64,000 nt of DNA, from the NCBI GenBank assembly GCA_950022655.1, contig OX465589.1:25225626-25289625 (forward strand), in the 5' to 3' direction. The stretch is from Alentia gelatinosa (lineage: Eukaryota > Annelida > Polychaeta > Phyllodocida > Polynoidae). The notes below the pieces were generated by a model that ran no database searches, had not been told where the DNA came from, and saw only the letters and a program-made list of their open reading frames with translations. The position numbers and the translations under genes were made by a program. Below, in pieces: positions 14,842-64,000 of the stretch. Position 1 is the first letter of the stretch. Each line of letters starts with the position of its first letter.

Positions 14842-14964
14842 AGCAATGAATGGATCAGAGTGCGCATCCAGCAGATGGAGCCCGACCTCATGGAGGTTGG
14901 GTCGTCGCTGGAGGAAGCGCGCGCTCTCCGCCGTGAGCACGACGAGCTACTCATGAAACTCAAT
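14842..14964 (+). CDS. CCDC141: Exon 1 of model (residues 1-41), internal exon
   Basis: The acceptor is catccttacag and the donor AAT|gtgagt; the exon is 123 nt, phase 0 at both ends. It begins SNEWIRVRIQQMEPDLMEVG, which parallels the WVRLQLAE...LLEIGSS region near the N-terminus of vertebrate CCDC141, and ends ELLMKLN. It has no suitable start and opens with an acceptor, so at least one upstream coding exon is expected. Two decayed copies of its 5' edge lie just upstream. Confidence 0.9.
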
Positions 14965-35900: not shown

Positions 35901-38785
35901 TCATGTTTGAGGACGTCATGCTCCTTACATGTCACAGGGGACCTTGTGACATTGTAGGTGAATGCGGGGGTCGGGGAGGGAGGTCGGCAGTGATGTACCG
36001 TCACAGTTTTAATGATCTACTGGCACGCTTTTCAATGGAGGAACTTCAACTATAGTTTATGTCATGTTTGTGGGTAAATTGGAATATTTGTGTATTTCAT
36101 AATTCTACTTCAAATATCAAAGAATGAGTGCAGAGGTTATAGGGATATGTCTCAAATATTATGATTTATATCAAATTTCACACATGCCTCTTTACTAAGT
36201 TGTTCACATGAGAAATGTGTTGGTTACTAAAGTCAGCGTTGTTTAAGGTTGTATTGCTTTCTGTCAATTAGACCAGTATTACCAGACATAATCCTAATGA
36301 TTCACTGAAAGAGCTAAGTCTTATGATATCAAAGGTAGACCTCATAATTCGATCATGCCAGTAAGTCACCGGTGTATGTATTTTTTGTGACTGCCTTACT
36401 GTGAAGTTACACGAATACTTGCCCATTCTAGGTAAAAGTCTAGGCTGGTGTTCCCATCATTATAACCACTATAACCGTGCTGATTGTAGCGGGAATATAT
36501 TCGAAAAAAATACCTTATATTGTTGTTACTATAGAATGTCTGGAATTGTAATGCTGTGATGAGATGTTGATCATTCTCCAAGTTTAGACTTACATTTGAT
36601 TGTCCCTTTATTACTGTACTATCGGTGTTAAATAAGACTCCATATATCTGTCAATGTAATTATCAATGTTGAAAACAAAATACCCAACTCTGGCTGATAT
36701 ATGTCAGTCAGTGTGTCATTAATGTAAAATAGGAACACTCCGTCCACATACCCTGGACAGTACAACACTCCCATATTCAGATCGTGTCTAATGTAAACCA
36801 GTCAACACATTACCAGAGGTAGATATAAGCACCCCGTTGATAGCCCCCTGGTTGATAGTTTTGTCTCTCTTACCTTTCACAGATGAAACAGAAGGACGTG
36901 ACAGAGTTGTTGGCGCGCGCTGACGACCTGGCGTCCCAGAATAAACCTTACCAGGAAGTGTACGGCGCCATGGCCGAGACGCTGGGCGAGGCGTGGAAAG
37001 ACCTCAACGCCCAGCTCGAGTATCGCAAGATGCTGCTCGACCAGTCCATCGCATTCCACGAGTCTGCTGCGCAGGTCAGTTCTCACAGAAACAATCTCTC
37101 TCCTCTCATTTAGCCTGAAAAAATAACATGTAAAGTGGCAATTATTTGTATTTCCTCTGAATCCTTTCTACGGTATTAAATGTGTTTACTAAACGAGGCT
37201 GGAGTGTCTGTCTCCAGGAAGATCCTACCTTGAAGTGAGAGCGCAAAACGTTCTAAAAAAAAACCCACAAAAAAAAACGGTATTAAATGTGATGACGAAA
37301 AGTAGAGATACTTAGAATTAGGTTTATTATTACTGGGTTTAAGTGACATGTACACCAGCTATAACCAACCATTAAAATTATATACTTGACGCTATACGCT
37401 GCTGCTACTTAATGAAAGCCAACCACCAAACCATAATGGGGAGTTGAGCTCTACTTGTATCTCACTATATTAAATCTTTGGTTTAATTGGTTTAATTTTT
37501 TTTTGTTAGCAGTAGCTGCCCTTCTGTTCATTATCCTCATCAAATATTTGAATAGATAAGTTCTTATCAATGCTAAAATCATGTATTGATATATCTGCTG
37601 TGTGGTGATTCAGTTCTAAATTTGTATAACTTCTCTACAAGCTATGCCCGTATAAGGTGTCATGTGTGAGTCTGTATGGCATTTCAGGATTACACGATAT
37701 TATAATACCTCCCGTCAGGTATCTCACTTCTGGGACTGAATGGAGGCTGCCCAGACGAAGTTCATGCCTGTTGTTGTGGCAGAGTATGTAGGACACGTCA
37801 GGATTATACAATGTCTGCTGTGGTGTTTCAGTTCTCGGATCGGATGGAGGTCGCCCAGACCAGATTCATTCAGGTCGGGACGGCCCATGACGTGGACACA
37901 GCGCGCCGCCTCCTACAACAACACCAAGAGTTCAAGAAGAGTGAGTAACTCAGTCAGTTCATTGTACCCGAAGCATATCATGCTCACCTCTCCCCATTTC
38001 TCATCATATTGAAGGGGTGCGAGCTAGTTGAAAATTATCGAATCTAATATATGAAATGGCTGGTGTACCATTTGGGAATAAGTCCCGGAATACAGAGATT
38101 ATTTGATGAGTTATACTAATGTTTCTTAGATGATATCAAAGACTAAGACTAGAAGTCAGTTTTGTTACATCCCTTCCCCCACCCCGACTCATAAAAAAAA
38201 TATAACAAACCAAATTCTGCATATTCGATACCTAGAAGATGTGAAGTTTACCAGTTGAGTACAAACAAACATATTCTTGCTCAAATGTAACCGCATCGAT
38301 ACATAATACAAAACCGTAAGCATTATATCACAATTTTTAAAAGATAGGAAAATTAAGAAACATCGGATGATCACAGGATCATGTAAACTTATTTAAATAA
38401 CGAAACTGATAATTTGAGGCTGTATTGGCTGGTGGTTGCAGGTATCCTTGAGGCGTCAATGTCGACGCTACAGGAAGGCCAGTCCCTGCTGGACCGTATC
38501 CGTGAGATGGGCATGCATGCGGACGTCCAGAACCGGCACGCTACCACCGCAGCCTGCTACGGCATCGAGCACCTGCTGGAGCTGCTCCAGGACCGACGCC
38601 GGACACTGGAGGAGCTCTGGTTCAGCCGCAAACTCAAGCTCGAGCAATGCCTCCAGCTGCTCCTGCTCGACCGCGAGGTCAAGAAGGTCAGTTCGCCTTT
38701 TTGTGGACAGTAGAACCCCGCTATAGTGGACGTCTCGCTTTAGGGGAACTGAATTAGATTTTTTATAATTATCACTATACATTTA

Positions 38786-38855
<70 letters not shown>

Positions 38856-44800: not shown

Positions 44801-46131
44801 GACATAGTAAAAACGCCATATTGACCTTTGATTTGGTATAAAAAAATATCATCAGCTACCAAGGTAAATTACTCAAATCACATGACACATCATGTGACAT
44901 TTCTATTTTCTAAAGAAAAAGGTGCCTGCTGTAGCAGGGTCATTTATGCAGACAATGCCTGCTGTGTGATGCTAAGTAGGGGAACTGGGTGCTGCAGGGA
45001 AAGGGTTAATAGTGAAAATTATACCAGAAGACATTCATATATATACGTCTATGGCTGCTTAATATTCATGTTTTTGTTATAAAGATGTGGTACCAGATAT
45101 TTAACTTCTTAAGGATCTATTAAGATGATTTGAGTTACTGTTCAGTACAAAGTTATGTAATTAATTCAGATCTTTTCAGTTTTTTTATATCTCCGTTTGA
45201 TATAACACGAATATCGAGAATTTAAGAAAACTGGAAATTGCGTTGCTTTTAACAATACCAGAACTGATATTGAATCTCTTTGTATTTTATGGTATGTTAG
45301 CAGAATTGAATCATTACAGCTATACAGATATGCCGAACCTTTTTATTTGAATGGCAGATTTGTTCTTTTGAATTGTTTCTATCAGCGGTTTGCTCGTAAT
45401 ATCTGGGAAAAAGTCCTTCTCCTAATCAGGTTAATATTGCTGATGGATTCCCACCATCAGGCCACTCCAGACTAACTGCCTGGAAACCCTTCAGAAGAAC
45501 AAGTCACCAATCAGAACATAGTCAAACGTACAGATTTCAAACTGGCCAATCAAAGCGTTTGTTTTATGTGTTTTGAGTGACGCTGGCCAATCAAAGCGCT
45601 TTTCTTATTTTCGCAGACTATTGATTGGGTGCAGAAAATTGAGACGGACTTTTTCCCTGCTATTGCGGGTGAATTGGGCACCTCAACAGAAAGCGTAAAG
45701 AAGTATCAGAAGCGATTGGAAGAATTTTCTCCTACTGTGAAGGTACAATGACTTGTTTTAAACTGCCCGCGCTCTGCCAAGGTCGTCTGAAGGTCAACGC
45801 TAACTTCTCCACCTCTCTGCTGCTCGGTTCTTAGATTTACTCCTTTATCAGAAGTTCTTGATAAAGATTCATGAAAATGTATACAAAACATAGCAATGTG
45901 TTTCACCATACCGACTTTCGGCAATTTTGTTTACACAAAGTCCTTTTCACAATTAAAATTTAACAAAAGACAACTTCCTTATTTTAACAACGAAGGAACC
46001 TTATCCCCTTTTCAAAATTTATCAAACAGAATTTGGAATTCTTGGCACCGCCATTGGATCACACCAATCTAATTGATAGAAACCGAATAAATTTATTTTT
46101 TTATTTTCTCCCATCATCAACCCTTTCAACC

Positions 46132-46162
<31 letters not shown>

Positions 46163-52100: not shown

Positions 52101-55100
52101 AGAATTTAGGTAGAGATATGTGTATCAGTAGGTAAGAGACACTGTCGTGTAAAAAAGCTGAGTGTTCACCTGGATATGTATATATGAAATTCATGTAAAA
52201 TCTGAAATTCGACCGTGGACCTGGAGCCTACTGAAAATAGGATCTGCGGAGGCCGAATAGAAATATAACTGAAAAAGAAAAAAAAAACAAAAAAAAACCA
52301 TCCTGCACGTCAAAAGTACGCGTTTGAATGTGTTTGTGTGTGGTGCGGGTTGGTTACTGTAGGGGGTGAATATAAGGGTTAGCATTTAGGCGGAGAAGGT
52401 ATATCAGTTGGTATAAGACATAGTCATGGAAAAATGTTTAGCCACCACCTGGTTGTGCATGAAAAGTACGCGTGTGCAGATGTGTGTCTGTGGGGTCGTC
52501 TAGTTAGAGTATGTCGGAGAGGTTAATATGGAAGTTCGAATTTTAGTAGAAGCCACCATAGAGAACGACTCAGAAGAATTCTCCAGAAATTATTTGTTTG
52601 ATCTATGAAGGGGTGCCATGTCTTGGTCAGTCTGAGCTTTTGTGTTCACATAGATCTAAAGCAATAGCTGAATATGATGAACTAGAAATGCAGATTAGTT
52701 TGTATGGTTAGATGACTATAGCAGAAGCTGGCTATGCAAGGCACATGCAATAGAGGGTAATGGATGATATATATGGGCTGCCGAGGTATATAGACAAGTG
52801 ACCATCGGAGATTGCTTATTTACAGGGGTAAAAAAGGTCTTAGGAGAAAATAGGATGTATTATAGAGTTAAAATGACGTTTTATCGATGGAACCAAATAT
52901 TGAGACCGCGTGATTTGGCGGGTATGAATTAGGACTACATTTTACTATGGTCTGCATTAATTTTTTGAACACGGTTTCACAAGTATATGAAAATTAGTTA
53001 GTATGTGTTGGTAAACAGTATTATTGATGTATATACGTGGAATTTATAACTTTCTGTATATAAGCCTAAGGATTCGTAGCACTATTTCATTTCATAACAC
53101 CCACTTCTACATGCTGTTACACTGATCTCTGCACATTACTCTCATTATTCATTGCTTGGTGGTCGGGCCAGTCTGCTCTATAGACTCACATTGCACAAGT
53201 ACTGTAACCTTTAATACCATACATTCTATCACATTCCTCAAGTAGGAATAAAATAGAAATCAACTCAAGTAACATAAGGGTGTGAAAATCAGGAATATTG
53301 GACGTAATTTGGAAATTCGAAAATATTTACCTCTCTTGGGACACCACGTACTTGTGCAGATGTAAAAGTGGATATGGAGCAGACCGGCGTCTGGTGCTGG
53401 TTCCGGTTCCGGTGTAGTGTAGCCTCGTTCTGCTTCCTTCCCTGACACCACGTGACCTCACAGAGACGCACCAGAAGGTGGTCGCTCCGGACATCTCCAA
53501 ACACCTCAAGTCACAGGAAGTACCCGAAGGAACGCAGTTCATGTTCGAATGTCACGTGACCGGCATTCCCTCGCCAACCATCTCGTGGTTCAAGGATGAC
53601 GTCAACATCGACCAGTCGGCCGATTACGTCATCACAAAGATTAACGGCACGTGCGGCCTCAAGATCCGTAAATGCGTGAAGGATCACAGCGGACGTTACT
53701 CGTGCAAGGCCACCAACAATGGCGGAGAGGCCACGTCCACTGCCAAGCTCAACGTCATCTGTAAGCACGCCCTCTGGTGCTAGACGTGTGCGCTGCATGT
53801 CCGCATGGCCACGGGGAAGGGTGGGGGCAAACTGTTTCCGGTTGTCAGATGTCGTGGTGACTCGGTGGATTGGTGTCACCTCCTGTGTTTGAAAAAAAAA
53901 TCATTTTACTTTTTGAGAAAAAAGGCAAAATTATTTGATTATCTTCTAGTATGAAATCTAGTTAAAAAAAGAAATATTAGAAATGATTGATTTGATAAAG
54001 AAAATGCAAACATGCGGATTTGATCAACTGTTCACTGCATGCACATATTCCCTACGGTCGAGCTTGAATCTTCTGTATGATATTATTTTGTAGAATTGCA
54101 CATCTATGAATTTAAAGCTAGTCTTAGTATTAACAATCTGCTAAGTTCCTGTATATATTATAACCTCTACTCTTTGATTTTTTACTGTCACTCAAATATT
54201 CACCGCTTTTTCTGCTTTTCTTTATTTTTCTACTTTGCAATTATAGCACACGCATTATTTGCTAAATGAGCAATAGATAAGTCTTATTATGCTTCAAACA
54301 AAACACTAGCAGGCCCTAGGATGTATTGCAAGATGTGTTCCATTTCCTGTCAGAGCCCTCGTTTAAACTGTCCACTGTGGAATTCTGCATTGTTTTCAAG
54401 GAGAGAAAACCTAAATTTTAGTAAATTCCAGTGGAAATATCAGACGAAATTTACTCCTCAGTCACTCCGCTGCTTAAATGCTTCCATCGCATCTATAATT
54501 ACCATTTCTGACATGATTGAACTCTAGCCTTAGAACCCCTAAATGCGCGCCACCATGCAGGACTCTGACGTCACGTGTTGCTCTGGTTACAGGCGTGCGG
54601 AAGCCGGTGTTCGAGACGCCGCCCTGCAACGTGGCGGCGCCCGAGGGCAAGTGCGTGCGCATGGAGGCTCACTACACGGGCGAGCCGAGCCCGCAGATCC
54701 AGTGGATGAAGGGCGACACCCCCATCCTGCCCTCCTCCGTCTTCAAGGTTCGTCTCTCGTCTTAACTCACCTGCCACTTTTAACAGCCATAGGACCTAAA
54801 TGTATTTTCAAAAAAAATATTATTTGTCAGAATCAGTCGTTTTTGAATGTCATAGAGTTGTTGTATATACTATGATATCATATATCTTTTCACTTTGAAT
54901 TGACGATGCATCTATATACTTGTCCAACCTACTCCTTTTTATTGATATATATTGGGATAACGAAAGAAAACAAGTTCTAAAGATAATTTTTGAATTTGGA
55001 TTGATTTAAATATTAAAAAAAATGAAAAAAATTGCATATATGTTTCATAAGTCTAATTGACGTACATGTACTAAAACTTTCGATCTATGGGAATACTCAG

Positions 55101-58100
55101 CTATCTCTTAAGAATAACTTGTCGAGTGAAATGGTGATTATTTTGGCCATTTTCACCACAGCCGCTATTGGAAATCAACCTTTATCTTTTGAATTGCGAC
55201 CAATAAATTGATTTGAAAAAAAAAAGGTAGAAGTAGTTCACTCTCGTTGTACATAACATCACTGTGACATTGTGACTACAGATCATCGTGGAGACGGGCA
55301 TGACTGCACTAGAGATAAACGAGGTGTACCCAGAGGACTCCGGTAACTACACCGTGGTCCTCAAGAACCTGGGCGGCGAATCACGCGCCTCGTGTCTGCT
55401 CACCGTCGACGGAATGTTCTCAGCGTCTGAGGCTGACGTCACAGATCACGAACCCACCAAACCACAGGTGGCCCAGAAATTGGTCAACAAAGAGGTGCTC
55501 GAAGGAAGCCGCGCCCGGCTCGACTGTGTTGTCACCGCTCACCCCGAACCCGAGGTAGGTCATGGCTTCTCCGTCTCTAAATCTTATATAAACGACGAGG
55601 CGAAGCACATTCAGTTCCCCACCCTCCCCCGAAAAAAAGGCCTCTAAATCTTGACTATAAACTGTCTCGAAGTCTTGACCATGTAAACACCCTGCAATAT
55701 GGACCTGCAGTGTGTAATGTGTCCTCTGTCTCAAGATCTTGAATGTTTTCGCTGCTCACCCAGAACCCGAGATACATATGAACGTCGTTTCTGTGTTGAA
55801 ATGCCCCTGAACCCTAACCTTGAGATACCCTCAACCCGAGATATGTTCAACCCGAGATATATTCTCTATTTATAAATCTTGCTTGCACCCAATATCCTGA
55901 ACCTGAGGTTCATAGTCTGGTCTCAGTTCAGTCTTTTCATGTTCATGCCTTATTGTATGTTCTTTGTTTCTCTTTTGATTGTGTCATTATCCTCATTACC
56001 ATACTTAGATTTGTGTTTGATATGAAACTGGAGATGATTTATCCATATAAAAACATTTATATATGATACGAGGCGGTAAACTTTCTTTGTATACTTAAAA
56101 AATACAAAAACAATTGAATGAAAATACATGTCTATCAAGTCTAATTGAACAAATTGGACGTTAAACTACCCAAACAAACAAACAAACAAACATGTCTATC
56201 CTCATATTCCCAAATAAGAACTTATGATCTGAGGGGAGATTTCAGGTGATTTTGTTGACTTTACCAACAGGTGATCTGGTACCACAACGACCGGCCGGTG
56301 AAGGAGTCCAAGGACTTCCAGCTGTTGTTTGAGGGAGACCGGTGCTCACTCATCATCAGGGAGGTGTACCTGGAGGACTCCGGTGAATATCGCGTCGTGG
56401 CCCGCAATCCGTACGGCCAGACGGAGAGCACCTGTCGTCTCATCGTAGAACGTGAGTCTTTACGCTATGTGTCATTACGGCCTCACGCAACATCCCTTTA
56501 ACGTAGCCTTGTCTCTGTCGTCTAGATCAGTAACAGCCTTTGACGCTATGTATGTACCCTGTCACGCAGTGCATCTTTTAAGTGTCACGTAATGCTCTTC
56601 ATCTTGTCGTTTGATAACGCGTCTTTGCTTTACGCTATGTACCCTGCGTCACGCATTGCACATCTAAAGTGTCACGTAATGCTCATTGATTTCTTGCATA
56701 GGTCCGTATCAAACCCTTACGCTATACATCCAGTGTCAGACAATGGACCTGTAATGTGACAGGCATTGCCATATACGTCACGTAATGTCACCTATTTCCG
56801 TATCATTCCTGTGCATATCATCAATTATGCCCCACTTCGACTTAAACTTTAAGTTCAAACTGGTGGTGATGGTACATGTATGTTGCCACGCGTAAAACCC
56901 TGCGTAGAAACAGCAGTAAGCCATAGGTCGTGAATAGCCTATTTATTGATTAGTTTTCTAAAACGGATTTTCTTTGAATTGCAAAGGGCCGATTTAAGTG
57001 TAAGCCATCAGGGAAAGGTAGCTACAGGTTGTGCATTCAACGCCACTCTATCCTGAATCAAATTTACCCTAGCCGATCCACAGATTAAAAAAACATACAG
57101 AGAATCAAGCGCTTCCCGGCTTTGATTATATCTAGTTGATTTAAAGATAAAGAGAAGAAAGCGGTCAGCTGACCTTGTGTTGTCTGACGCTTGTAGCGTT
57201 CACTTCCGGGTCTGAAGAATCAGTCGGCGACTCAGTCAGCGACACCTGGACACATAGAATCTTTACCAAGGTCAAGGACGTGGGAGCCAAAGTGACCAAG
57301 GGTAAGGGTCAAAGGTCATGGTCATCAGCCCGGAATGTGTCCAGCTTGTTATTCTCGCACAGCCTCTTATTGTTCTGCACTATCTGACCTTGACTTGACC
57401 TTGACCTTTACCCTTTGCCACTTAGTTTTATTTGGTGGTGTAACTGACCATATTTTGTTATCGTTATTCTACTATTTTATATCGTTATACTCCGATGACC
57501 TAAACAGTGCTACGTACATGTTGCAAATATTTTGGTTCGTTGAATGTTATCTCATGTTTATTTTTGAGTTATACTTCTATGTATTATTCGTTTGTTACCA
57601 TTACTTTTCACATTGAATAGACACGTTGTTTTTAAAGAATGATATATGAGTTATTTCTTTATGGTTATTCATTTTGACGATGATTACCTTGGTTTGGACA
57701 TTTGTTTTGATAAAATGATAAGACAGATGTGCAGATGTTACACGAAAGCGATCTTAACGTCGATCTCGACAGAAAATAAATAATATATCAAAATATGCTA
57801 TATGCAGGATGATTAATCATTCAACTGAAAATAAATTCATTGAAAGTTTACGTTTCTCTGACAAAACTAATTTCAAAGTGGTTTAAATATCTACTTTCAA
57901 GATTATAAAGTAATTTAAAGCATATAAACACCAAATAGTTTTAAAGTGGTTTAAACACCCCTGAAATTCCTACCTCCTGTCTTTGATAGTCTGCACTGTC
58001 CTATCAATACATTATTTCTATTGTCATTTCTTACATTCATTCTTGTTTTACTCCTCGTTTACCGAGTGCTGCATAGTTGTGGAAAAAAACCATAAAACCT

Positions 58101-61100
58101 CACATAATTAATGGGATAAAAATTCCCTCCATGACAACGACAAACCAAATCCCATAATTGTTAAATTAAATGTAAAATCCCTGCCCCAATGGGATGATAT
58201 TATTTCTCCAGTGAAATTTTCCTTTCGTCACTGAAGGTTTGTTTCACTTGACAAAATGAAATTTCATTGGACCTTCCCTTTTCGGTTTATAGAAATCACA
58301 ATGCCCTTGATAAGAAAAGGGGACATTTGAAGCTGTATTTGAAACAGTGCTTTGATGCACATCCCAACTTATTTGAGAAAGATGTAAACTGTGGATTCAA
58401 CTTCAATCGATCAGATTCAATCAGAATAGGATGGTCAACAACAAATGAGTAGAACCGTGAGATCTCACTGAACTCTCGCCTTTTCTCATGCCACACAGCG
58501 CTCAGCGAGATGAGCGACGCTTCAGTGGATCGGAGCAGCTCGGAAGTTGTTCCGCCCAAATTCACACAACTACTTAAGGACCTGGAGGGCACGGAGGGAC
58601 AGAAAGTTCGTTTCGAGTGCCGCGTGATTGGCCACCCTACACCTGAGATCAGGTGGTTCCGAGACGGTAATGAGATCGTCAGTTCGCCAGACTTCCAGGT
58701 GGGTAGTCCACTCTGTGATATTTCAATGTGTTTTTTTTGTGTATGGAGGGTGCCCTTTTATTTATTTACATTCAATAAAAGATCAGCTGACAAATTATGG
58801 AATATCTTTTTAATTCCTTGTTTCTTAAATCCCAGAGCATGATATCTATTAAGTTGGTACAACCCTATGAAATATATGACATGTTTGCCGTGCAGATAGT
58901 ATAGTATCAAGTGCTATAGGATCTTTGACATATTTACTACTGATACATACACAATATTACCACGATTTCGATCTGAGTGGCCGTATTCTCCGCGTAGTTG
59001 GTGCGAAGTAAAAGAATGATTACGTAGTGTCAACTACAAAGAGAATACGGCCACACAGATCGAAATCATGGTAATGTTGTATTTATTACTCACCTTTCGA
59101 GTAATTATTAGGAAAAAAAATCTAGTATATTATTAGAAATTCGACCCTAGCGCTGTGCTTTGTTTATATGAATTGGTTCCTATAACGCCCGTCAAGTGGC
59201 CGAAAAAGCCGTATTCTCCTAGGAGATTCCGGAGGTCCGTATTCTACTCAGTAGTGATCTGTAAGCTCCATAAGCTTAGTATGGAGACTCCGTACTAGGT
59301 GGGTAATAAATTATCAAATTGTGTAGTTCTGTTACAATTTGAACCATCTCTTTTACAGCTTGTCTCTCACCGCGAGCTTCATTCGCTGACAATCCCGGAG
59401 GTATTCAAGGAGGACATGGGTAACTTCATGTGCAAGGCGGTCAACACAGCCGGCGAGGCAAAGTGCTACGCCACCCTCATCGTCAAACCATCGATGGAGT
59501 CGCACTTCGTCAAAACACGTCTTGTCGAGTCGTCGCACGTCGTACAGAAGACCACGACCACGACCACGATGGGCGTGAATAACAGACCCCCCGAATTCCA
59601 AAAACTATTTGGTGACATGCGAGTCAAGGCTGGCCTCTCCTGCAAGTTCGAGGTCACTATTACAGGAAACCCCAAGCCACGGGTAGGTCATGGTCATTGT
59701 TTCGACCGATTAAGGTCTTATTTACATGGAGATAAATATATGAGAGAAACCATAGAATCATTATAGATATATGAAAGAAGTTCTGAAGACGTGGCGAGGC
59801 GTACAGATCGAGATACCGCAATAGAGTAAGGAGCAGATCGTCTGCTCCCGTTATTTATAGTCAGACTACCCGCTACCTTGGCGACCTTAGGAACAGAACC
59901 GTTTGTATGGTAACGGTTAGTTTGTTGACAGTGTGACATCACGGTTAAAAAAAGAGAAGATATATGAAAGAAGAAAAATAATTAAGAGTTGGCGAAGTTA
60001 AATTTTTGTTTTCGCATACATGTGTTTGTGAATATCTTAGACCCCATATTGCATTGATTTATTAATTCATATTCTTTTGTACGTTCATTCATTTGGTTTC
60101 CTCATAGATTTTCTTTCCTCATTATATATTATGAAAACATAGAGTTAAGATGAGCGTTGAATATATTTTTAAGGATGAAAAAAGATTAGAACACTCATCT
60201 GACCTCCCCTCCTCAACGCCCACCCCACTAGATATACAGCTCGTATGTGACCGAGTCGCCAGTTGAGGCTCACTCTACGCGTCCATGTTGTAGGTGCGGT
60301 GGTTCTTCAACTCGGAGCCGGTGGTGTCTCCAGACTACCAGGTGCAGTCGTTCGGCGACAACTACAGTCTGTACATCCCGGAGGTGTTTGACGAGGACGC
60401 AGGGCGCTTCTCCGTCATCGCCGAGAATGAATCCGGCAAAGCCACGTGCGCCGCGCTGCTCGTCGTCGTCGACGAGTCGGCCGCGCCGCCCAAGACGGCC
60501 TCACCCCCACTGGTCAGTGTCCGTCCCTGTATCGTCACAGTAACTTGTAGTCTAGTGGTAGTCCAACTCACAGTGTGATAGTAGTATGGTAATCTTAATA
60601 GTCTAGCATTGATATATCCAATAACAACTGACATGCATGATGTACTAGTCCAGTCACGTTTTCGTTCAGTGACACTGTAGTATGGATATTATCTAACATC
60701 TATATTCAAAATTTTGGAGAAAAAACCTAAACCTTCATATTCCAATTCTATTGTTGTCTGTCTTAGTGTATTCATGAGTAGGGATAACTAGCATTTGTGT
60801 ATCTCAAGACTGGTTTCTCTTCGATGCGCCTCAGACGATAACAGGATTGTTATAGGCTCCCGATATAAGACCGATTTTGAATCATTTTAGAAAATATAGA
60901 GTAATAAAGATTCAATTCCTGCAATACTTTTCAATTTTATAGTAATGACACTAAATATTCTTTTCCATAGATCTTTACTTTATAATAGAATTTACCAATT
61001 GGCTGCATGAGGTACCACTATTTGGAGCTAAATAACATTATGTTTGTTGTTAAGACTAACAGTGTTTCCTGTTAACTAACTGTACTTAGTTTTTATTTTG

Positions 61101-64000
61101 TCCCGTTGCGATAGAGCTTTGTTCAGTAATCAAATGAAATAGAATTGACCACTCCTTAAGTGCAACAATGACGATATTGAATCAAATAACAAGTCAGTGA
61201 TATGATGCATGTATAACCTGATAAACGTTGGTCTTGTTCCTCCCCAAATATAAAACAAGTTATTTCATTTATTGCATTCTGAATATATTCAACTGAAGCA
61301 AGAATATAAGTTATTGAATTAACAACCAACTATTGACTTATTACTTATTACGGATCTTGCCCAACCCGAGTGAGTGGGAATATATCAATCTCTTTCTTAT
61401 TGAATTATAGCTTTTTGTTGTGAGTTTCCGCTTGCCAATTCGAATTGTTACTTTCGCATTATGAGTTTATCAATATGGACATGAGTGATGGAGGTACATT
61501 TAGTTAAGAGGGATAGATTTGGGGGTTCCGTGATCTTTCCACAGTGCTTTCCTGTCTTCTTCATCTCGTAGATTCAATCTTACCATGGTTTAACCCTAGC
61601 AGATACTACGCCATAAAATACCACAACAATAATATCAATTAAGTAAATACTTGCTACTTTTACCAGTTTTATCAATATTTTGTAACAGAGAACAAGTAGA
61701 ACATTGAGGTAATTTCTGAGATCGATAGTTATAACTTACATGCTAATGAACATTTTTGAAGGAATGTATCACTTTTTCATGTAAAACCGTGCTCTCAATG
61801 ATGGAAGTTTTTCTTTTTTCTCTCTCTAGTTTTCCTATTTCCCTTCTGATAGAATTATTGATGTATTCCTCTAGATAAATGAAACTGTTTAGTCCTGGGT
61901 GTTTTTCACTTTTTTACCGAAATCTAACTAGGATCCCCGATAAACGAACACCCATATTAATGCCATATACTAAATGTTAGTTTTTCACTTATGGTAGTAT
62001 TCTAATCAATATACCTGATCTTTCTGTTGACAGGCTCAGGTCCAGAGGAGACCCCAGCCTGTCTCGGAGCCGCCACCGGTACAACCCGTCATGGTTGCAC
62101 CCGTGGCTGCCGCACCGCCACCACCGCCCCCGGCGCCCCGCCCGGTACCGCCGCCCGCGCCGCGCGCCCCGCCCGCGCCGCCCGCCATGCCCAAATTCCC
62201 CCAGATGGACCTTCAAGTGGAGGTGCCCGTACCTCCAAGATTCGCCGAACAGATCAAGGACATTACCTCCAAAGAGGGCACCAGAGTTACCTTCCAGGGA
62301 ACTGTTGAGGGTGAGTGTGCTTTTATTATTGATCAAAGGTGATGTTATGTTGGCTGGCGCTTTTATACGTGTGCGGCCAGGCAATGAAAACCAGCAGCCA
62401 TGATAGCAGCTGATGCCATGGACACTTTATTGGCACCGAATCTATATGGAAAATGTAACACACAGATAATTGTATCTCTTTCATGTCAATAAAGAAATTC
62501 CTTTATACAGAATTAAAAAAATGATAATGATTATTTGTAGTGAATGATTGAAAAGACTCACTTAAATTCAAAGTTAAAGTGCGGGTATGGCTGGCCACAA
62601 GGCCGACCGGAACCGCGAGTGGCCTCCCCCACCCCCAAGTTACCAAAATTCCATAAGGTTGAAGCAAGAATATGATAAAGAGTAGTGACTTTGTGAGTGG
62701 TGCCATCAGTCTAGATAGAGGTGCCATCGGTCTAGGGAAAATGTTGCCATCAGTCCGAAGAGGTTGCCATCAGTCCAGGTGCCATCGGTCTGTTGTGCCA
62801 TCGGTCTAGTAATCGTGGGGAGTTAGCTCAGTGGTTAAGGCACTTGACTTGTAATCCCAAGGTTGTGGGTTCGAGTTCCACTGCAGCCACTCTTCTCTTT
62901 CATCCCCAGAAGTGGTAGATTTACTGCTATATCAAAGGCCAATCCTTCTCATACCATGTCTATGTGGTATGGGAAGTAAAAGAACTATCCCCTCTGTAAA
63001 TGTGTAGGGGTGAGATTTCTACCTAAATTCATCACATAAATTCGATCACCACACATATGGTGTAAAAGAACCTTGAGAAAGTCTGGTAATAACTAGTAAT
63101 GGTTAACTGGACGAAATCGAACCAACCAACCAATCATTGAGGAGAACACAAAATTGCGATAAAATGTTTAGTGAAAGGTATCAAAGCATGGATATTCCAT
63201 GCCTTTTTAATCGAAAAGAACTATCTTGTTTACGTCTTGTTTCCCTTAGAAGAATAGGGCATGACTTTGAACTATGCCCTATCTACCTTCCTTCCCCTGC
63301 AATATTATGCCCCGGTCTGGTCCTGAGCGTGAATCGCATCCCCCCCCCCCCCCCCACCCGCCCCGGTATTTAGTAGAAACTGAACGAGAGTTAGACTTGT
63401 CAGTGTTTATGCCACGACGGGAAGGTCGTGTATTACTACGCGAAGCGTTAGCTGAGGGTAGTGAGGAACAGACCTGACCAGAGTGGCATAGACACTGACA
63501 AGTCTAACCCGAGTTCGGTTTCATATTGATTCTACCCCGTCTCTACGCTTTTGGATTACTAAAATATAAATATTGATTAAACGACTAACCGGAGTCCAAC
63601 CGGAACTTTTGAGTCCAACCGGAACTTTTTTATGGAGCAGCTCACAATCTGGTCGCTGATTGGTCGAATTGTTTATGCCCCTAGAGGCATAAATCGCACT
63701 TTTTGTCATGGCATGCCGCATAAAATTTGCCTATGTTATGCCTATGGACCGTTTTTATTAGGGGTAGGATAATGTTGGTTCCTCCAATAGCGCCCTTTTT
63801 ATTATCTCCATCACTAGGGCACCTCCCCCTGTCAGAAGTCCTGCATGAGTTTCACGTGTCTGTCTGTGTGGTATCTGTCTGTCCGCTCATCCTAGCTGAC
63901 TCTGTCTCGTCTTGCCCGTGACAGGTAAGCCGGCACCCGTGATCCGCTGGTACAAATCGGGTCATGAGATCACGGGCAGCGCCGACTTTGAGATGACGGT
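14842..64000 (+). CDS. CCDC141: CCDC141 (CAMDI)-like spectrin-repeat plus multi-Ig protein, 33 exons in window, open at both ends
   Basis: All exons join in one frame with GT-AG borders and compatible phases. Residues 1-1115 (exons 1-21) are charged, helical spectrin-like repeats. Residues from about 1135 on are I-set Ig domains: Ig1 exons 22-23, Ig2 exon 24, Ig3 exons 25-26, Ig4 exons 26-27, Ig5 exons 29-30, Ig6 exons 30-31, Ig7 exons 32-33. Family knowledge, from memory: vertebrate CCDC141 is a cytoplasmic protein that binds DISC1 and myosin II and acts in neuronal migration; it has spectrin-like repeats and one C-terminal Ig domain. Landmarks matching it here are WIRVRIQQMEPDLMEVG, VYGAMAETLGEAW, LLELLQDRRR and ATECKT. 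The extra Ig domains resemble titin Z-disc, palladin and unc-89 modules, so a muscle scaffold role is an inference. The first coding exon is probably missing (see 12605 and the upstream region). Alternative identities, an obscurin/unc-89 or Trio/kalirin relative, fit the spectrin half less well. Confidence 0.87.
15572..15590 (+). repeat. G homopolymer run
   Basis: Nineteen consecutive G. Confidence 0.9.
15790..16575 (+). repeat. Degenerate minisatellite in intron 1
   Basis: Repeated gagctgttcagt / tagcctggttctgctcagtgcag motifs at roughly 45-60 bp spacing between 15790 and 16200, reappearing at 16480-16575. Strongly diverged. Confidence 0.6.
17142..17593. mobile_element. TA-flanked pogo/Tigger-type MITE
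   Basis: Left end TACAGTCGAACCCCGCGTAA, then TCGGACACC; right end reverse-complements to TACAATAGAACCCCGCCTAA, then CGGACACC. Both start at TA. These ends resemble pogo/Tigger (Tc1-mariner superfamily) TIRs as I recall them. No transposase is encoded. Confidence 0.75.
17219..17525. mobile_element. Second palindromic MITE nested in the first
   Basis: taaggggcccctcccaccta at the left is matched by taggtgggaggggccctta at the right, and attaagtctgcgattaacc by gggttaatcgtagacttaat. The interior repeats acgacgcacta in both orientations. It interrupts the outer element. Confidence 0.75.
19917..20004 (+). repeat. 46-bp direct duplication
   Basis: caccctttagttttggtgct followed by ctggccaccat occurs twice, 46 bp apart, each after an A-run. 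Confidence 0.9.
23210..23535. repeat. Four tandem units of about 88 bp
   Basis: acctgtacacaggggaaat...atggggctccaagtgagaca recurs with starts near 23230, 23320, 23407 and 23491; similarity falls from left to right. Confidence 0.85.
24198..24222. repeat. 25-bp near-perfect palindrome
   Basis: ccgtacgtcaca and tgtgacgtacgg are exact inverted complements around a single central base. Confidence 0.9.
24275..24426. mobile_element. Long hairpin MITE
   Basis: Arms of about 65 bp (atacgaaaacgggctgactg ... cagatacatccc and gggatgtatctg ... cagtttccgtat) surround a 15-nt loop. Non-coding foldback. Confidence 0.85.
26949..26969 (+). repeat. G-rich run
   Basis: Fourteen G, a T, six G, then tgg. Confidence 0.85.
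27343..27356 (+). repeat. G homopolymer run
   Basis: Fourteen consecutive G. Confidence 0.9.
30709..30737 (+). promoter_or_regulatory. Two CACGTG E-boxes 20 bp apart
   Basis: GGTCACGTGACC (30709-30720) is a perfect 12-bp palindrome, and a second CACGTG lies at 30732-30737, with GACGTCA just downstream. They sit 0.8 kb before the candidate first exon at 31538. Such sites bind USF/MITF/TFE-type bHLH factors in general; use here is inferred. Confidence 0.3.
31221..31228 (+). promoter_or_regulatory. Consensus CRE (TGACGTCA)
   Basis: A full palindromic CREB/ATF site within CTGACGTCAG, 310 bp upstream of the candidate alternative start at 31538. Further half sites (gacgtg near 31267, gacgtc near 31361) lie close by. 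Confidence 0.3.
31484..31493 (+). promoter_or_regulatory. Perfect CArG box (SRF site) before alternative first exon
   Basis: CCTAAAAAGG fits CC(A/T)6GG exactly and lies 45 bp upstream of the ATG at 31538. SRF/CArG boxes are classic in muscle promoters, which agrees with the sarcomere-like Ig domains. An A-rich core could also act as a TATA surrogate. Confidence 0.4.
31538..31636 (+). CDS. Candidate alternative first coding exon inside intron 1 (33 codons)
   Basis: ATG in a good Kozak context (gtaaagATGGCG) opens 33 codons, MAGRLPSAHSLRLDDDTKWL and then EINQLMVAIKNK, ending AAG|gtgagg in phase 0, exactly what exon 2 needs. A perfect CArG box lies 45 bp upstream of the ATG. Spliced to exon 2, the amphipathic end would replace the helix that exon 1 supplies (ELLMKLN). 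It is an inference that this is an alternative start; it could be a chance ORF with a good donor. Confidence 0.5.
33451..33486 (+). repeat. Triple 14-bp tandem repeat
   Basis: ccccctccagca repeated three times. Confidence 0.9.
34250..34273 (+). promoter_or_regulatory. TATA-like element overlapping an NF-kB-type motif
   Basis: cgtataaaGGGAATTTCCtggg: TATAAA (34251-34256) runs directly into GGGAATTTCC, a perfect kB consensus, then ttcctgggaa, a STAT-like palindrome. It precedes the candidate first exon at 34376. Confidence 0.25.
34376..34429 (+). CDS. Candidate second alternative first coding exon (18 codons)
   Basis: gagaccATGGAG is a strong start context. It opens MENSNQEGEEHDGEGDTK and reaches AAG|gtacgc in phase 0, compatible with exon 2. 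A TATA-like element (tataaa at 34251) sits about 120 bp upstream. The peptide is acidic and low-complexity and has no family match I know, so coding status is uncertain. Confidence 0.35.
35179..35375 (+). mobile_element. 5'-truncated SINE copy (same family as 62816)
   Basis: From ttctcataccatgtctatgt to the aaaccaacaaataaacaaa tail, this segment matches 62945-63135 along its whole length (gtgggaagtaaaagaact, aggggtgagatttctacct, accttgagaaagtctgg). The tRNA head is missing. Confidence 0.85.
36883..37074 (+). CDS. CCDC141: Exon 2 (residues 42-105)
   Basis: Acceptor tttcacag, donor CAG|gtcagt; 192 nt, phase 0/0. It contains VYGAMAETLGEAW, nearly identical to the block I recall in vertebrate CCDC141, and joins exon 1 without a gap relative to that protein. 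It opens with ATG, so it could itself supply a start if transcription begins inside intron 1. Exon 2 is the common acceptor for the candidate alternative first exons at 31538 and 34376. Confidence 0.95.
37690..37785 (+). pseudogene. Degenerate partial copy of exon 3
   Basis: gactgaATGGAGGCTGCCCAG followed by acgaagttcatgc mirrors exon 3 (ggatcggatggaggtcgcccag, then accagattcattc), and the preceding aggattacacgat matches the intron sequence aggattatacaat at 37801. It lacks a usable acceptor AG. The period is about 110 bp. Confidence 0.75.
37832..37940 (+). CDS. CCDC141: Exon 3 (residues 106-142)
   Basis: Acceptor gtgtttcag, donor AAGA|gtgagt; 109 nt, phase 0 in and 1 out. Starts FSDRMEVAQTRFIQVG and ends QQHQEFKK. 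It is the second helix region of the first spectrin-like repeat. A degenerate copy of its 5' half lies about 110 bp upstream (37690-37785). Confidence 0.93.
38442..38686 (+). CDS. CCDC141: Exon 4 (residues 142-223)
   Basis: Acceptor ggttgcag, donor AAG|gtcagt; 245 nt, phase 1 in and 0 out. It contains GIEHLLELLQDRRRTLEELW, matching the LLELLQDRRRQL block of vertebrate CCDC141. Leu/Gln/Glu-rich heptads indicate a coiled coil or spectrin helix. A transposon-end-like remnant begins 22 bp after the donor. Confidence 0.95.
38709..38745 (+). mobile_element. Remnant of a pogo/Tigger-type transposon end
   Basis: acagtagaaccccgctatag then tggacgtc matches the TIR of the element at 17142. No opposite end is seen. 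It lies just after the exon 4 donor. Confidence 0.5.
38783..38852. repeat. (A)n(TA)n microsatellite
   Basis: An A-run of about 19 followed by about 25 TA dinucleotides in intron 4. Confidence 0.95.
39288..39326 (+). pseudogene. Degenerate copy of the exon 5 acceptor edge
   Basis: atgtgtttataggtgggagacgggtacactgcggta parallels tgtgtttacaggttgcagactggtacacagaggta at exon 5 (39409-39443). The acceptor AG survives, but the frame runs into a stop soon after. Confidence 0.7.
39420..39539 (+). CDS. CCDC141: Exon 5 (residues 224-263)
   Basis: Acceptor tgtttacag, donor AGG|gtaagt; 120 nt, phase 0/0. Starts VADWYTEVGDTYLKE and contains SLGESLPAAQ, like the SLGSSLSD stretch of vertebrate CCDC141. A diverged copy of its acceptor and first codons lies about 125 bp upstream. 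Confidence 0.93.
39591..40504 (+). repeat. Tandem array of eight 112/116-bp units copying the 5' edge of exon 6
   Basis: Unit exon-like starts fall at 39601, 39717, 39829, 39941, 40053, 40165, 40277 and 40389, in register with real exon 6 at 40505. Spacing is 112 bp except 116 bp for the first and last units, which share a 4-nt insertion (GAGATGTCCAGTG). Each unit has tttacag (tttatag in unit 1), nine codons reading DIQETVLRL or close variants, then GTGTGAGT, giving an in-frame TGA and a possible new donor. The rest of each unit is the intron tail preceding the next acceptor. Confidence 0.95.
40505..40696 (+). CDS. CCDC141: Exon 6 (residues 264-327)
   Basis: Acceptor ggtttacag, donor ACG|gtaagt; 192 nt, phase 0/0. 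Starts DIHETVLRLVRTADQLV and ends with a helix LALAISFYSQALT. The acceptor and first nine codons are repeated eight times in the 0.9-kb array immediately upstream; only this copy reads on into a full spectrin helix (CTGGTGCGC rather than CTGGTGTGA). Confidence 0.95.
41068..41265 (+). CDS. CCDC141: Exon 7 (residues 328-393)
   Basis: Acceptor tttacacacag, donor AAG|gtacgt; 198 nt, phase 0/0. Starts ALSKLDDIEVQLSST, with AKRHAYLSNMI and APALREGRILLERV further on. The order LxxL, RH...L, REGRxLL parallels the corresponding CCDC141 repeat. Confidence 0.93.
41757..41867 (+). CDS. CCDC141: Exon 8 (residues 394-430)
   Basis: Acceptor gacttacag, donor AAT|gtgagt; 111 nt, phase 0/0. VTELQERVDKLENMC followed by EAGERSFAYNQLEEM, a helix with charged heptads. 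The exon itself opens with GTAACG directly after AG, a weak donor-like start. Confidence 0.92.
42121..42180 (+). repeat. Exact 30-bp duplication with acceptor-like end
   Basis: atgtggatatgagtattttt followed by cagaa(g/c)cttg occurs twice in tandem in intron 8, 50 bp before the real exon 9 acceptor. Each copy ends in a ttttttcag-like 3' splice motif. Confidence 0.9.
42231..42353 (+). CDS. CCDC141: Exon 9 (residues 431-471)
   Basis: Acceptor tccgtgcag, donor AGG|gtaaga; 123 nt, phase 0/0. Starts LNTWLGRIGQATLSQH and ends HQRLLSDIR, a spectrin-like helix with the usual W at its start. Confidence 0.92.
42730..42921 (+). CDS. CCDC141: Exon 10 (residues 472-535)
   Basis: Acceptor gtgtttgcag, donor AAG|gtgagt; 192 nt, phase 0/0. 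Contains LQQQWKALSAAVESRI, a spectrin-repeat signature in which the conserved W of helix B/C is followed by LxxxVExR, and ends AHSYVSFHKKAQK. Confidence 0.94.
43436..43606 (+). CDS. CCDC141: Exon 11 (residues 536-592)
   Basis: Acceptor ctgcccgcag, donor GCA|gtaagt; 171 nt, phase 0/0. LAIKMDALEQYLKIEKL, then a Ser/Lys-rich loop and MNQMFTDVEGQGKVFIKEA. The vertebrate protein seems shorter here, so part of this repeat may be lineage-specific (from memory). Confidence 0.92.
44134..44158 (+). repeat. T homopolymer run
   Basis: About 25 consecutive T in intron 11. Confidence 0.9.
44350..44526 (+). CDS. CCDC141: Exon 12 (residues 593-651), opens with a perfect donor motif
   Basis: Acceptor ttgtag, donor AAG|gtgagg; 177 nt, phase 0/0. 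Starts VSGEDLDTRRAV and ends QWHQFIQDARK. The first six coding bases are GTAAGT, so joining exon 11 to exon 12 rebuilds a consensus 5' splice site. Skipping would keep the frame. Confidence 0.94.
44655..45009. mobile_element. piggyBac-like MITE
   Basis: Both ends are TTAA. The left end TTAACCATTTAACTGCAGCA and the reverse-complemented right end TTAACCCTTTCCCTGCAGCA are TIRs. A 31-bp internal duplication (actgcagcatgatgcctcca) follows the left end. TTAA target sites are the hallmark of piggyBac; no transposase is present. Confidence 0.75.
45507..45598 (+). repeat. Duplicated CCAAT-containing 41-bp segment before exon 13
   Basis: ctggccaatcaaagcg occurs at 45542 and 45583, with a third CCAATCA at 45507. 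The second copy ends 18 bp before the exon 13 acceptor. Confidence 0.85.
45617..45742 (+). CDS. CCDC141: Exon 13 (residues 652-693), candidate mutually exclusive exon A
   Basis: Acceptor ttttcgcag, donor AAG|gtacaa; 126 nt, phase 0/0. Starts TIDWVQKIETDFFPAIAGEL and ends FSPTVK. It is homologous to exon 14 (22 of 42 aligned residues identical) with identical phases. Third codon positions are more A/T-rich than in exon 14. Confidence 0.93.
46130..46164 (+). repeat. C19 run followed by (AC)n
   Basis: Homopolymer C then about eight AC units in the intron between exons 13 and 14. Confidence 0.9.
46450..46578 (+). CDS. CCDC141: Exon 14 (residues 694-736), candidate mutually exclusive exon B
   Basis: Acceptor gtgtttctag, donor AAG|gtatag; 129 nt, phase 0/0. 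Starts TIDWVRDVEKGLFVPHIAGN and ends FGPTAK. Together with exon 13 it forms a tandem duplicated pair 707 bp apart. Both end in Lys and both can precede exon 15. Confidence 0.93.
47082..47270 (+). CDS. CCDC141: Exon 15 (residues 737-799)
   Basis: Acceptor cacgagcag, donor CAG|gtcagt; 189 nt, phase 0/0. Starts KAQAQIEEHLKTAEMLSLKG and includes VHTRFQARITEYQ. The acceptor has a short pyrimidine tract, so the exact start (after gagcag) is slightly less certain than for the others. Confidence 0.9.
47671..47847 (+). CDS. CCDC141: Exon 16 (residues 800-858)
   Basis: Acceptor ccgttccag, donor CAG|gtaagg; 177 nt, phase 0/0. Contains LREHEANRDKVKELINF and EEGEQIVVRVRQQ, a motif also reminiscent of spectrin repeats in the Trio/kalirin group. 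Confidence 0.94.
48307..48456 (+). CDS. CCDC141: Exon 17 (residues 859-908)
   Basis: Acceptor tgtttgcag, donor CAG|gtgaga; 150 nt, phase 0/0. Contains ERRRAWDHAWDDQHKKLEQN, a spectrin helix with the conserved W and LxQ heptads, ending FYFDLKQ. Confidence 0.94.
48993..49130 (+). CDS. CCDC141: Exon 18 (residues 909-954)
   Basis: Acceptor ctccggacag, donor AAG|gtacga; 138 nt, phase 0/0. ELDELQRQLMNRHGNYG followed by SSLSSVKMTSQAFAQFEKNA, a typical helix A/B of a spectrin repeat. Confidence 0.93.
49787..49963 (+). CDS. CCDC141: Exon 19 (residues 955-1013)
   Basis: Acceptor ccgcgcag, donor AAC|gtgagt; 177 nt, phase 0/0. Contains HYDSRRIRHEVESV and VQKKWHDFYRLIGEYRAAL, the helix B/C signature of a spectrin repeat, ending KFFEVMDN. 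Confidence 0.95.
50284..50467 (+). CDS. CCDC141: Exon 20 (residues 1014-1075)
   Basis: Acceptor ttttacag, donor TATG|gtgagc; 184 nt, phase 0 in and 1 out. CEDWVKDSSTFLLQIGRKAT then ECKTSGDAGDLIQQL. The C-x2-W spacing, the TECKT block and the closing LYG match the last spectrin-like repeat of vertebrate CCDC141; this is one of the strongest family landmarks. Confidence 0.96.
51004..51125 (+). CDS. CCDC141: Exon 21 (residues 1075-1115), last spectrin-like helix
   Basis: Acceptor cgtaaacag, donor GAG|gtgggt; 122 nt, phase 1 in and 0 out. QKMQHMVDKNQAILDSFV and LGILRDNLLKKE parallel the QKYIEKIVTKHKEVLESV helix that closes the CCDC141 repeat region. Confidence 0.94.
51396..51505 (+). CDS. CCDC141: Exon 22 (residues 1116-1152): linker and first strand of Ig1
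   Basis: Acceptor cattgtag, donor CAGAG|gtaagg; 110 nt, phase 0 in and 2 out. A short linker SSVVDKTAPKQPII leads into PRFTDPLSNAEITEGQR, the usual A/A' strand start of an I-set domain. This exon is the hinge between the spectrin and Ig halves. Confidence 0.92.
51861..52081 (+). CDS. CCDC141: Exon 23 (residues 1152-1226): rest of Ig1
   Basis: Acceptor ttgcatag, donor AAAG|gtaagc; 221 nt, phase 2 in and 1 out. Core I-set residues are visible: FTFEC (B strand Cys), IEWFKDD (Trp), and DTAKYTCRAT (second Cys). Confidence 0.95.
52304..52475 (+). repeat. Possible copies of the exon 23 donor edge
   Basis: gcacgtcaaaagtacgcg (52304) and gcatgaaaagtacgcg (52456) resemble the exon 23 end CCGCGTCAAAGgtaagcg. 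Downstream segments (aatttaggtagaga / catttaggcggaga) also repeat. The match is short, so this is tentative. Confidence 0.4.
53464..53760 (+). CDS. CCDC141: Exon 24 (residues 1226-1325): complete Ig2
   Basis: Acceptor acctcacag, donor ATCT|gtaagc; 297 nt, phase 1/1, so the whole domain is one symmetric exon. EGTQFMFECHVTGIPSP, ISWFKDDVNI and DHSGRYSCKATNNGGEAT give the two Cys, the Trp and the DxGxYxC motif of I-set domains. Confidence 0.96.
54593..54747 (+). CDS. CCDC141: Exon 25 (residues 1325-1376): first half of Ig3
   Basis: Acceptor tggttacag, donor AAG|gttcgt; 155 nt, phase 1 in and 0 out. RKPVFETPPCNVAAPEGKC and GEPSPQIQWMKGDTPI. The B-strand Cys position reads Ala (RMEAHYTG), so the standard Ig disulfide is absent. 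The donor gttcgt is non-optimal. Confidence 0.92.
55282..55554 (+). CDS. CCDC141: Exon 26 (residues 1377-1467): end of Ig3, linker, start of Ig4
   Basis: Acceptor gactacag, donor GAG|gtaggt; 273 nt, phase 0/0. LEINEVYPEDSGNYTVVLKN completes Ig3. An acidic linker (SASEADVTDHEPTKPQ) follows, then VLEGSRARLDCVVTAHPEPE starts Ig4. The donor edge has degenerate copies in the next intron. Confidence 0.94.
55746..55912 (+). repeat. Degenerate copies of the exon 26 donor edge
   Basis: gctcacccagaacccgagat at 55752 copies the exon end GCTCACCCCGAACCCGAGgt; shorter echoes (caacccgagatat twice at 55832 and 55848, and gaacctgaggtt at 55899) follow. In most, the GT has become AT, which disables the donor. 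Confidence 0.65.
56143..56191 (+). mobile_element. SINE/LINE 3' tail
   Basis: ttggacgttaaactacccaa plus (CAAA)n, the same tail as 13683-13730. Confidence 0.6.
56271..56451 (+). CDS. CCDC141: Exon 27 (residues 1468-1528): second half of Ig4
   Basis: Acceptor accaacag, donor GAAC|gtgagt; 181 nt, phase 0 in and 1 out. VIWYHNDRPVKESKDFQ and LEDSGEYRVVARNPYGQTES carry the Trp and the DSGxY motif. The second Cys is replaced by Val in YRV. Confidence 0.95.
56432..56790 (+). repeat. Tandem copies spanning the exon 27 donor
   Basis: The stretch from ctgtcgtct through gagtctttacgctatg (exon end and intron start) recurs at about 56515 and 56603 and more weakly near 56690, period 83-95 bp. Each copy is followed by a gtcacg...gcatct...gtcacgtaatg tail. 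The donor GT is lost in the copies. Confidence 0.75.
57197..57301 (+). CDS. CCDC141: Exon 28 (residues 1528-1563): Ser/Asp-rich linker, candidate cassette exon
   Basis: Acceptor gcttgtag, donor AAGG|gtaagg; 105 nt, phase 1/1. Encodes SGSEESVGDSVSDTWTHRIF and then a Lys/Val-rich end (KVKDVGAKVTK). No domain; acidic Ser clusters could be CK2 sites (inference). Symmetric phase allows in-frame skipping. Confidence 0.8.
57302..58498 (+). other. CCDC141: Intron 28: nothing recognised
   Basis: About 1.2 kb of AT-rich sequence with no clear repeat or exon. The short ORFs at 57335 and 58267 are not flanked by suitable splice sites in frame. Confidence 0.6.
58499..58698 (+). CDS. CCDC141: Exon 29 (residues 1563-1629): first half of Ig5
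   Basis: Acceptor tgccacacag, donor CAG|gtgggt; 200 nt, phase 1 in and 0 out. A Ser-rich lead (SEMSDASVDRSSSEVV) then PPKFTQLLKDLEGTEGQKV, FECRVIGHPTPEIRWFRDG. It is highly similar in style to the titin N-terminal Z1/Z2 domains. Confidence 0.95.
58951..59310. mobile_element. MITE with internal inverted repeat, intron 29
   Basis: acaatattaccacgatttcg...ggccgtattctccgc (58951-59001) is the inverted complement of gagaatacggcc...cgaaatcatggtaatgttgt (59031-59080). The right end (gtattctactcagtagtgat ... gagactccgtactaggtggg) matches the cluster at 6766-7190 in reverse complement. Confidence 0.8.
59359..59682 (+). CDS. CCDC141: Exon 30 (residues 1630-1737): end of Ig5, Thr-rich linker, start of Ig6
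   Basis: Acceptor cttttacag, donor CGG|gtaggt; 324 nt, phase 0/0. HSLTIPEVFKEDMGNFMCKA closes Ig5. The linker holds a coding hexanucleotide repeat (ACCACG three times, giving six Thr). RPPEFQKLFGDMRVKAG begins Ig6. Confidence 0.95.
59683..60293 (+). other. CCDC141: Intron 30: nothing recognised
   Basis: About 0.6 kb of AT-rich sequence with no clear repeat or exon. Confidence 0.6.
60294..60512 (+). CDS. CCDC141: Exon 31 (residues 1738-1810): second half of Ig6 and Pro-rich tail
   Basis: Acceptor atgttgtag, donor CTG|gtcagt; 219 nt, phase 0/0. VRWFFNSEPVVSPDYQVQSF, YSLYIPEVFDEDAGRFSVIA, then a short linker AAPPKTASPPL. The PEVFDEDAGRF pattern resembles the AEAYPEDSGTY strand F of titin Z2. 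Confidence 0.94.
60513..62033 (+). other. CCDC141: Intron 31: nothing recognised
   Basis: About 1.5 kb of AT-rich sequence with no convincing repeat or exon. Confidence 0.6.
62034..62310 (+). CDS. CCDC141: Exon 32 (residues 1811-1903): Pro/Ala-rich linker and start of Ig7
   Basis: Acceptor ctgttgacag, donor GAGG|gtgagt; 277 nt, phase 0 in and 1 out. About 45 residues of almost pure Pro/Ala/Arg (APPPPPPAPRPVPPPAPRAP) with extremely GC-rich sequence, then VPVPPRFAEQIKDITSKEG starting Ig7. Proline runs of this kind often bind SH3, WW or profilin domains; no FPPPP EVH1 motif is present. Confidence 0.92.
62699..62812 (+). repeat. Degenerate tgccatcggtct tandem repeat
   Basis: Six copies of tgccatc(a/g)gtc(t/c) at 12-30 bp spacing directly before the SINE. 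Confidence 0.85.
62816..63135 (+). mobile_element. Near full-length tRNA-derived SINE
   Basis: The head has a clear A box (tagctcagtggttaagg) and B box (ggttcgagttcc) with a TGT triplet at the anticodon position, but the acceptor stem does not pair. A 190-bp body shared with 35179-35375 follows, then a gttaactggacg...aaccaaccaacc tail. Confidence 0.85.
63340..63355 (+). repeat. C homopolymer run
   Basis: Sixteen C. Confidence 0.9.
63376..63522. mobile_element. Hairpin MITE-like element
   Basis: gaaactgaacgagagttaga and cttgtcagtgtttatgccac pair with gtggcatagacactgacaag and tctaacccgagttcggtttc. Arms about 40 bp, loop about 65 nt with smaller internal palindromes. Confidence 0.85.
63925..64000 (+). 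CDS. CCDC141: Exon 33, partial (residues 1903-1928): Ig7 continues past the window
   Basis: Acceptor cccgtgacag, phase 1 in. Encodes KPAPVIRWYKSGHEITGSAD and runs open to the edge at 64000. The first bases after AG are GTAAGC, another donor-like exon start. The gene therefore contains more Ig sequence to the right. Confidence 0.92.

Follow-up and report, generated by a model that had tools for sequence, protein, structure and literature searches.

The origin of titin inside a larger gene was proposed in 2025, in a study of connectitin (SESTD1-CCDC141-TTN) in which the single gene of ancient animals is a hypothesis (Hanashima et al. 2025, PMC12198301). According to that study, human and Drosophila have three adjacent genes, single genes are those of cnidarians and placozoans, cnidarian connectitin genes bear RhoGEF and PH, and reported transcripts span the human pair and the fly pair. 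It also gives Drosophila zormin as the CCDC141 orthologue and leaves undecided whether one titin gene was split in protostomes or two were fused in chordates. The insect Ig/Fn3 part is a separate gene, projectin (PMC12063666). Among the titles and abstract openings listed, PMC12198301 was the one paper on the link between CCDC141, SESTD1 and titin. This study concerns a stretch of 64,000 nucleotides (the window) from the polychaete Alentia gelatinosa, located at positions 25225626-25289625 of contig OX465589.1 (here C11) in a 1.23-Gb assembly of 101 contigs. The window is the middle of a huge muscle-gene locus in which SESTD1, CCDC141 and titin parts lie together in one readable order, and the sequence makes it probable that the gene in the window forms the CCDC141 head of a titin gene that was never split.

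The DNA was re-read with an exon-chaining script and inspected by eye; coordinates above 64000 or below 1 carry the window numbering on past its edges. The gene is on the + strand. Its 31 exons within the window are 14842-14964 and a further thirty that begin at 36883 and extend as far as the right edge. AG/GT borders were found at 31 of 31 exons (the last opens at 63925), and the spliced frame has no stop. In the 1,846-residue model Pfam recognizes I-set (E 2.5e-151) in seven stretches, the seventh truncated by the window edge, Spectrin in four stretches, Spectrin_7 and DUF7799. The original prediction, made from the letters alone, of a CCDC141-like spectrin head joined in frame and without a stop to Ig domains is borne out. 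It also described at least seven Ig domains, still open at the edge, which agrees with the seven I-set stretches and with coding that continues far past the edge, but Ig7 itself is incomplete in the window. The gene start it placed at 36883 is an internal splice acceptor (TTTCACAG|ATGAAA), preceded by exon 14842-14964 and by an ATG exon at -1142..-1011, and its 33 exons become 30 from 36883 plus the earlier one, with two optional exons besides (45617-45742 and 57197-57301). Exon 14842-14964, the first rod exon in the window, starts SNEWIRVRIQQMEPDLMEVGSSLEEA and runs from phase 0 to phase 0; it was matched in tblastn by 11 of the 12 homologs tried (E <=1e-3; the exception is P0007), and a 21.9-kb intron separates it from the exon at 36883.

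The 19-exon spectrin rod (36883..51125, + strand) follows CCDC141/zormin collinearly along almost all of its length. Its exons lie at 36883-37074, 37832-37940, 38442-38686, 39420-39539, 40505-40696, 41068-41253, 41757-41867, 42231-42353, 42730-42921, 43436-43606, 44350-44526, 46450-46578, 47082-47270, 47671-47847, 48307-48456, 48993-49130, 49787-49963, 50284-50467 and 51004-51125. The alignment with koala CCDC141 takes in rod residues 1-1073 of 1,083 and spans 1,103 columns at 26% identity (E 1.9e-86), a match far beyond chance. Among full-length rows (about 1,030-1,120 columns), identity is 24-26% to vertebrate CCDC141, 27% to bee and 48-63% to lophotrochozoan rows; the JGI protein stands at 63%, Owenia at 56%, Lingula at 54% and Haliotis at 51%. 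Relatives of the window protein number 89 of 7,991 scored candidates (E <=1e-3), with animal proteins closest. Owenia, Aplysia, the JGI protein, Haliotis, Mytilus, Tubulanus and a chiton lead the list, amphioxus, bees, a nematode and vertebrate CCDC141 follow, and spectrins form the tail. A rod tree of 23 rows joins the window to the JGI row (100/100), with Lingula next (94/93); its deeper forks are uncertain and several rows are long-branched. By these relationships the animal is of lophotrochozoan type. The CCDC141-type N-terminus (TTTxSTVAVQAG...) is also present, as MDDPRATSDAVSEFSDLSETPSTTTISTIAVQAGKAKIVLAVLR in the ATG exon 1.0 kb left of the window, which has the ATG context GCACCATGG and a phase-0 donor.

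The Ig domains follow on the same strand. Ig1 (51396..52081; exons 51396-51505 and 51861-52081) has Lingula Ig1 as its best match, at 51% identity. Lingula Ig2 to Ig6 likewise match Ig2 (53464..53760; 61%), Ig3 (54593..55554; exon 54593-54747 and the 5' part of 55282-55554; 51%), Ig4 (55282..56451; the 3' part of 55282-55554 and exon 56271-56451; 66%), Ig5 (58499..59682; exon 58499-58698 and the 5' part of 59359-59682; 56%) and Ig6 (59359..60512; the 3' part of 59359-59682 and exon 60294-60512; 60%). Ig7 occupies 62034..64000 in the window, and its second exon (63925-64122) crosses the edge. Ig6 is the final Ig ahead of Ig7, where vertebrate titin begins, and an in-frame ATG precedes Ig7. In the domain tree the window Ig6 groups with insect zormin Ig6 (100/97).

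Rod and titin-type Ig domains occur in one predicted protein in Lingula ('titin', P0118), Pinctada (P0090) and Mytilus ('titin', P0005), with Ig1-Ig13 in Pinctada compared with Lingula and Ig3-Ig13 in Mytilus. These models are shorter than the window locus, and fn3 and kinase are not among their listed Pfam domains. Single models of this kind were also found in scorpion, acorn worm, sea urchin and amphioxus (P0209, P0210, P0221 and P0013), with less clean domain labels. Bird titin starts at Ig7, and all three insect Sls models examined start at Ig10. Nine Ig domains were counted in eleven rod-bearing models, ten of them from named insects or a spider. An insect split at Ig6|Ig7 was considered and dropped, since most rod-bearing arthropod models carry nine Ig domains and Sls begins at Ig10; the exception is a bee model (P0015) that ends after Ig6 with a differing C-terminus. 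One protein intended as a control, P0112 ('OBSCN', Branchiostoma lanceolatum), has Ig domains matching Ig6, 7, 8, 10, 12 and 13 in order. Judged by its content it is amphioxus titin, and it was left out of the Ig controls.

Outside the window, the DNA read comprises 200 kb on the right side, 40 kb on the left, three 10-kb stretches and one 3.5-kb stretch. On the left, SESTD1-type exons (SEC14 and spectrin parts) were located by tblastn with proteins of annelids, molluscs, a nemertean, amphioxus and bee; they stand in order on the + strand, which places the CCDC141/zormin rod between a SESTD1-type gene and the titin part, all on one strand. The final SESTD1-type exon has a phase-0 donor (AAAT|GTGAGTA) at C11 25219468, and exon 14842 opens in phase 0, so both an own CCDC141 start and read-through from SESTD1 are allowed. 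SESTD1-type exons are joined to the rod in models of Owenia, Haliotis, Babylonia, Octopus, Tubulanus and amphioxus (P0018).

On the right side, exon 63925-64122 completes Ig7; a 26.2-kb intron comes next, then Ig8 at 90341-90628 and Ig9-Ig13 at 97614-104801. Many Ig domains and giant stop-free stretches lie beyond Ig13 (e.g. 1,471, 2,690, 4,164, 2,533, 1,579, 2,613 and 1,434 residues). In the exon at 250082-254350, P, E, V and K make up 79% of 1,422 residues, a PEVK segment, against 34-42% in the seven other long exons. SH3 was found by Pfam (PF07653, E 1.9e-11; L021:3514-4782), as was IQ. Several stretches between 146801 and 207861 (L017-L023) run for 4 to 12 kb without a stop and were treated as single exons. 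They contain internal repeats that are E/T/Q/V-rich and not PEVK-like; one example, judged by eye, has units of ~46 residues (LKPETVSEEI... to ...ATQIGMQLEE). A phase-forced chain from 14842 to 263682 gives 130 exons, 28,494 residues and 66 Ig domains; phase and stop absence were imposed and internal exons alone are modelled, so it serves as a map and not as proof. It departs from the 31-exon model at rod exons 41068 and 41757 (omitting 41757-41867), and its long-intron exons (e.g. 29155-29252, 31567-31636 and 77035-77124) are not believed. A less constrained chain has three phase breaks, one fixed by an acceptor at 104505 and the other two corresponding to a missed half-Ig exon; the exon near 224 kb is placed approximately.

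Tandem Ig domains with phase-1 introns reach about C11 25501656, and the first Fn3 exon lies at 25502439; the exon series has one phase break, after a half-Ig exon. Fn3 matches extend across 25503792-25632362 on the + strand (a lower bound, with 150 of 324 candidates scored). Within the 137 kb at 25509626-25646699 the sequence itself was read over one 10-kb stretch. At the level of the locus, A-band-type Ig/Fn3 repeats follow the I-band Ig domains on the same strand; the pattern in L034 is by eye Ig-Ig-Fn3-Fn3-Fn3, and an Fn3 pair from it has titin A-band chains as best PDB matches. A kinase lies at 25646888-25648845, 14.5 kb past the last Fn3 match, and scores 222.6 bits with twitchin, 207 with MYLK4 and 181 with titin; the gene's 3' end lies outside the DNA read. 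Two more loci with Ig and kinase domains lie on the same strand (C11:25845537-25882395 and C11:43857148-44093992, the second also with Fn3). They are possibly MYLK-like and obscurin-like relatives, at a guess, and are in line with PMC12198301, which claims that members of the titin family lie on the same chromosome.

An unsplit gene has to be weighed against three or more separate neighbours, namely SESTD1, a CCDC141 of zormin type that ends around Ig6-Ig9 and a titin that starts close by, with the open frame a leftover of splice-phase compatibility. Several observations favour such a division: the three adjacent genes described for human and Drosophila in PMC12198301, two Tubulanus models that meet at Ig6|Ig7, the CCDC141-type start exon and the ATG ahead of Ig7. 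The gene models moreover cover internal exons only, and terminal exons and poly(A) sites may lie between the parts. However, fused models exist in Lingula, Pinctada, Mytilus, Macrostomum, scorpion, acorn worm and sea urchin, a transcript-like relative of 4,653 residues (P0215) is an indirect sign of one transcript, and short in-phase introns join Ig6 to Ig7 and the I-band to Fn3. Transcripts spanning the human and fly pairs, as reported in the same source, also argue against strict separation, and separate neighbours are considered unlikely, though with a real chance of being correct.

That the unsplit state is a derived, lophotrochozoan-specific CCDC141-titin fusion rather than ancestral is decidedly improbable. 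The cleanest one-to-one fused models are lophotrochozoan, but rod and titin-type Ig domains share one model in scorpion, acorn worm, sea urchin and amphioxus, and the domain order is unchanged where the genes stand apart (bird titin from Ig7, insect Sls from Ig10). Independent fusions are disfavoured because the order is equal in animals with separate genes. It is scarcely credible that the gene is a CCDC141 paralogue whose Ig domains expanded independently, or that the Ig string is of palladin, obscurin or unc-89 type. All the domains are I-set, and general similarity is high, with 40 of 367 control Igs reaching a score of 0.33 with some reference domain; the domain tree nevertheless speaks against an own expansion, and a private expansion and an obscurin/unc-89-type origin were rejected on domain order and tree (palladin lay outside the comparison). 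Of the fusion or own expansion first offered for this gene, the fusion-type reading is the supported one. The shared SESTD1, CCDC141 and titin locus fits the idea of titin starting within a larger gene, and the unequal titin starts (Ig7 in vertebrates, Ig10 in insects) make that origin testable by RNA and more genomes. A sarcomeric origin for CCDC141, which is linked to heart rate and neuronal migration, would follow if it is true.

Some rod and Ig exons have optional or repeated companions. A second version of rod exon 46450-46578 lies at 45617-45742 (+ strand; TIDWVQKIETDFFPAIAGELG... and TIDWVRDVEKGLFVPHIAGNLG..., identical phase), and the relatives inspected hold one version; the two are a candidate mutually exclusive pair. 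Another optional exon candidate, in phase, lies between Ig4 and Ig5 (57197-57301; FTSGSEESVGDSVSDTWTHRIFTKVKDVGAKVTK). A tandem array at 39587-40534 has 8.4 copies of a 112-base unit. In seven copies the acceptor and next 27 bases resemble the start of exon 40505-40696, and in six of the seven a GT directly follows the 27 bases. Three encode DIQETVLRL, three close variants and the seventh DIQEMSSAA; they are possibly 9-residue micro-exons or a mere minisatellite. Exons 14842 and 37832 have degraded, incomplete copies of their 5' ends directly upstream (14436, 14669 and ~37740-37830), so that, counting the array, three exons have copies of their own start ahead of them. Antisense shadows aside, neither tblastn with 12 relatives nor a codon-score scan trained on this gene revealed a further clear coding exon in the first 36 kb or on the minus strand. 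Searches of the window for tRNA genes (ARAGORN, bacterial code) and Rfam families gave nothing.

Among the known systems, twitchin/projectin shares Ig/Fn3 repeats and a related kinase with the C11 locus. C6 carries a separate kinase of twitchin type (22235641-22247956, minus strand), with exons 61-79% identical to Biomphalaria twitchin, whereas identity to the twitchin query is 45-50% for the kinase exons on C11. The C11 kinase is thus not the most twitchin-like of the genome, yet its best PDB match is twitchin. Drosophila zormin with sls likewise has a spectrin rod and, after it, several Ig domains ahead of I-band titin, but differs in that the insect Sls models examined begin at Ig10. Connectitin, as described in PMC12198301, agrees with this locus in its parts, their order and their location on a single strand, with SH3 and a kinase present, and its combination of SEC14, spectrin repeats and many Ig domains is found here in one locus. 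The bilaterian cases in that paper are three adjacent genes, whereas in A. gelatinosa the parts lie in one readable order.
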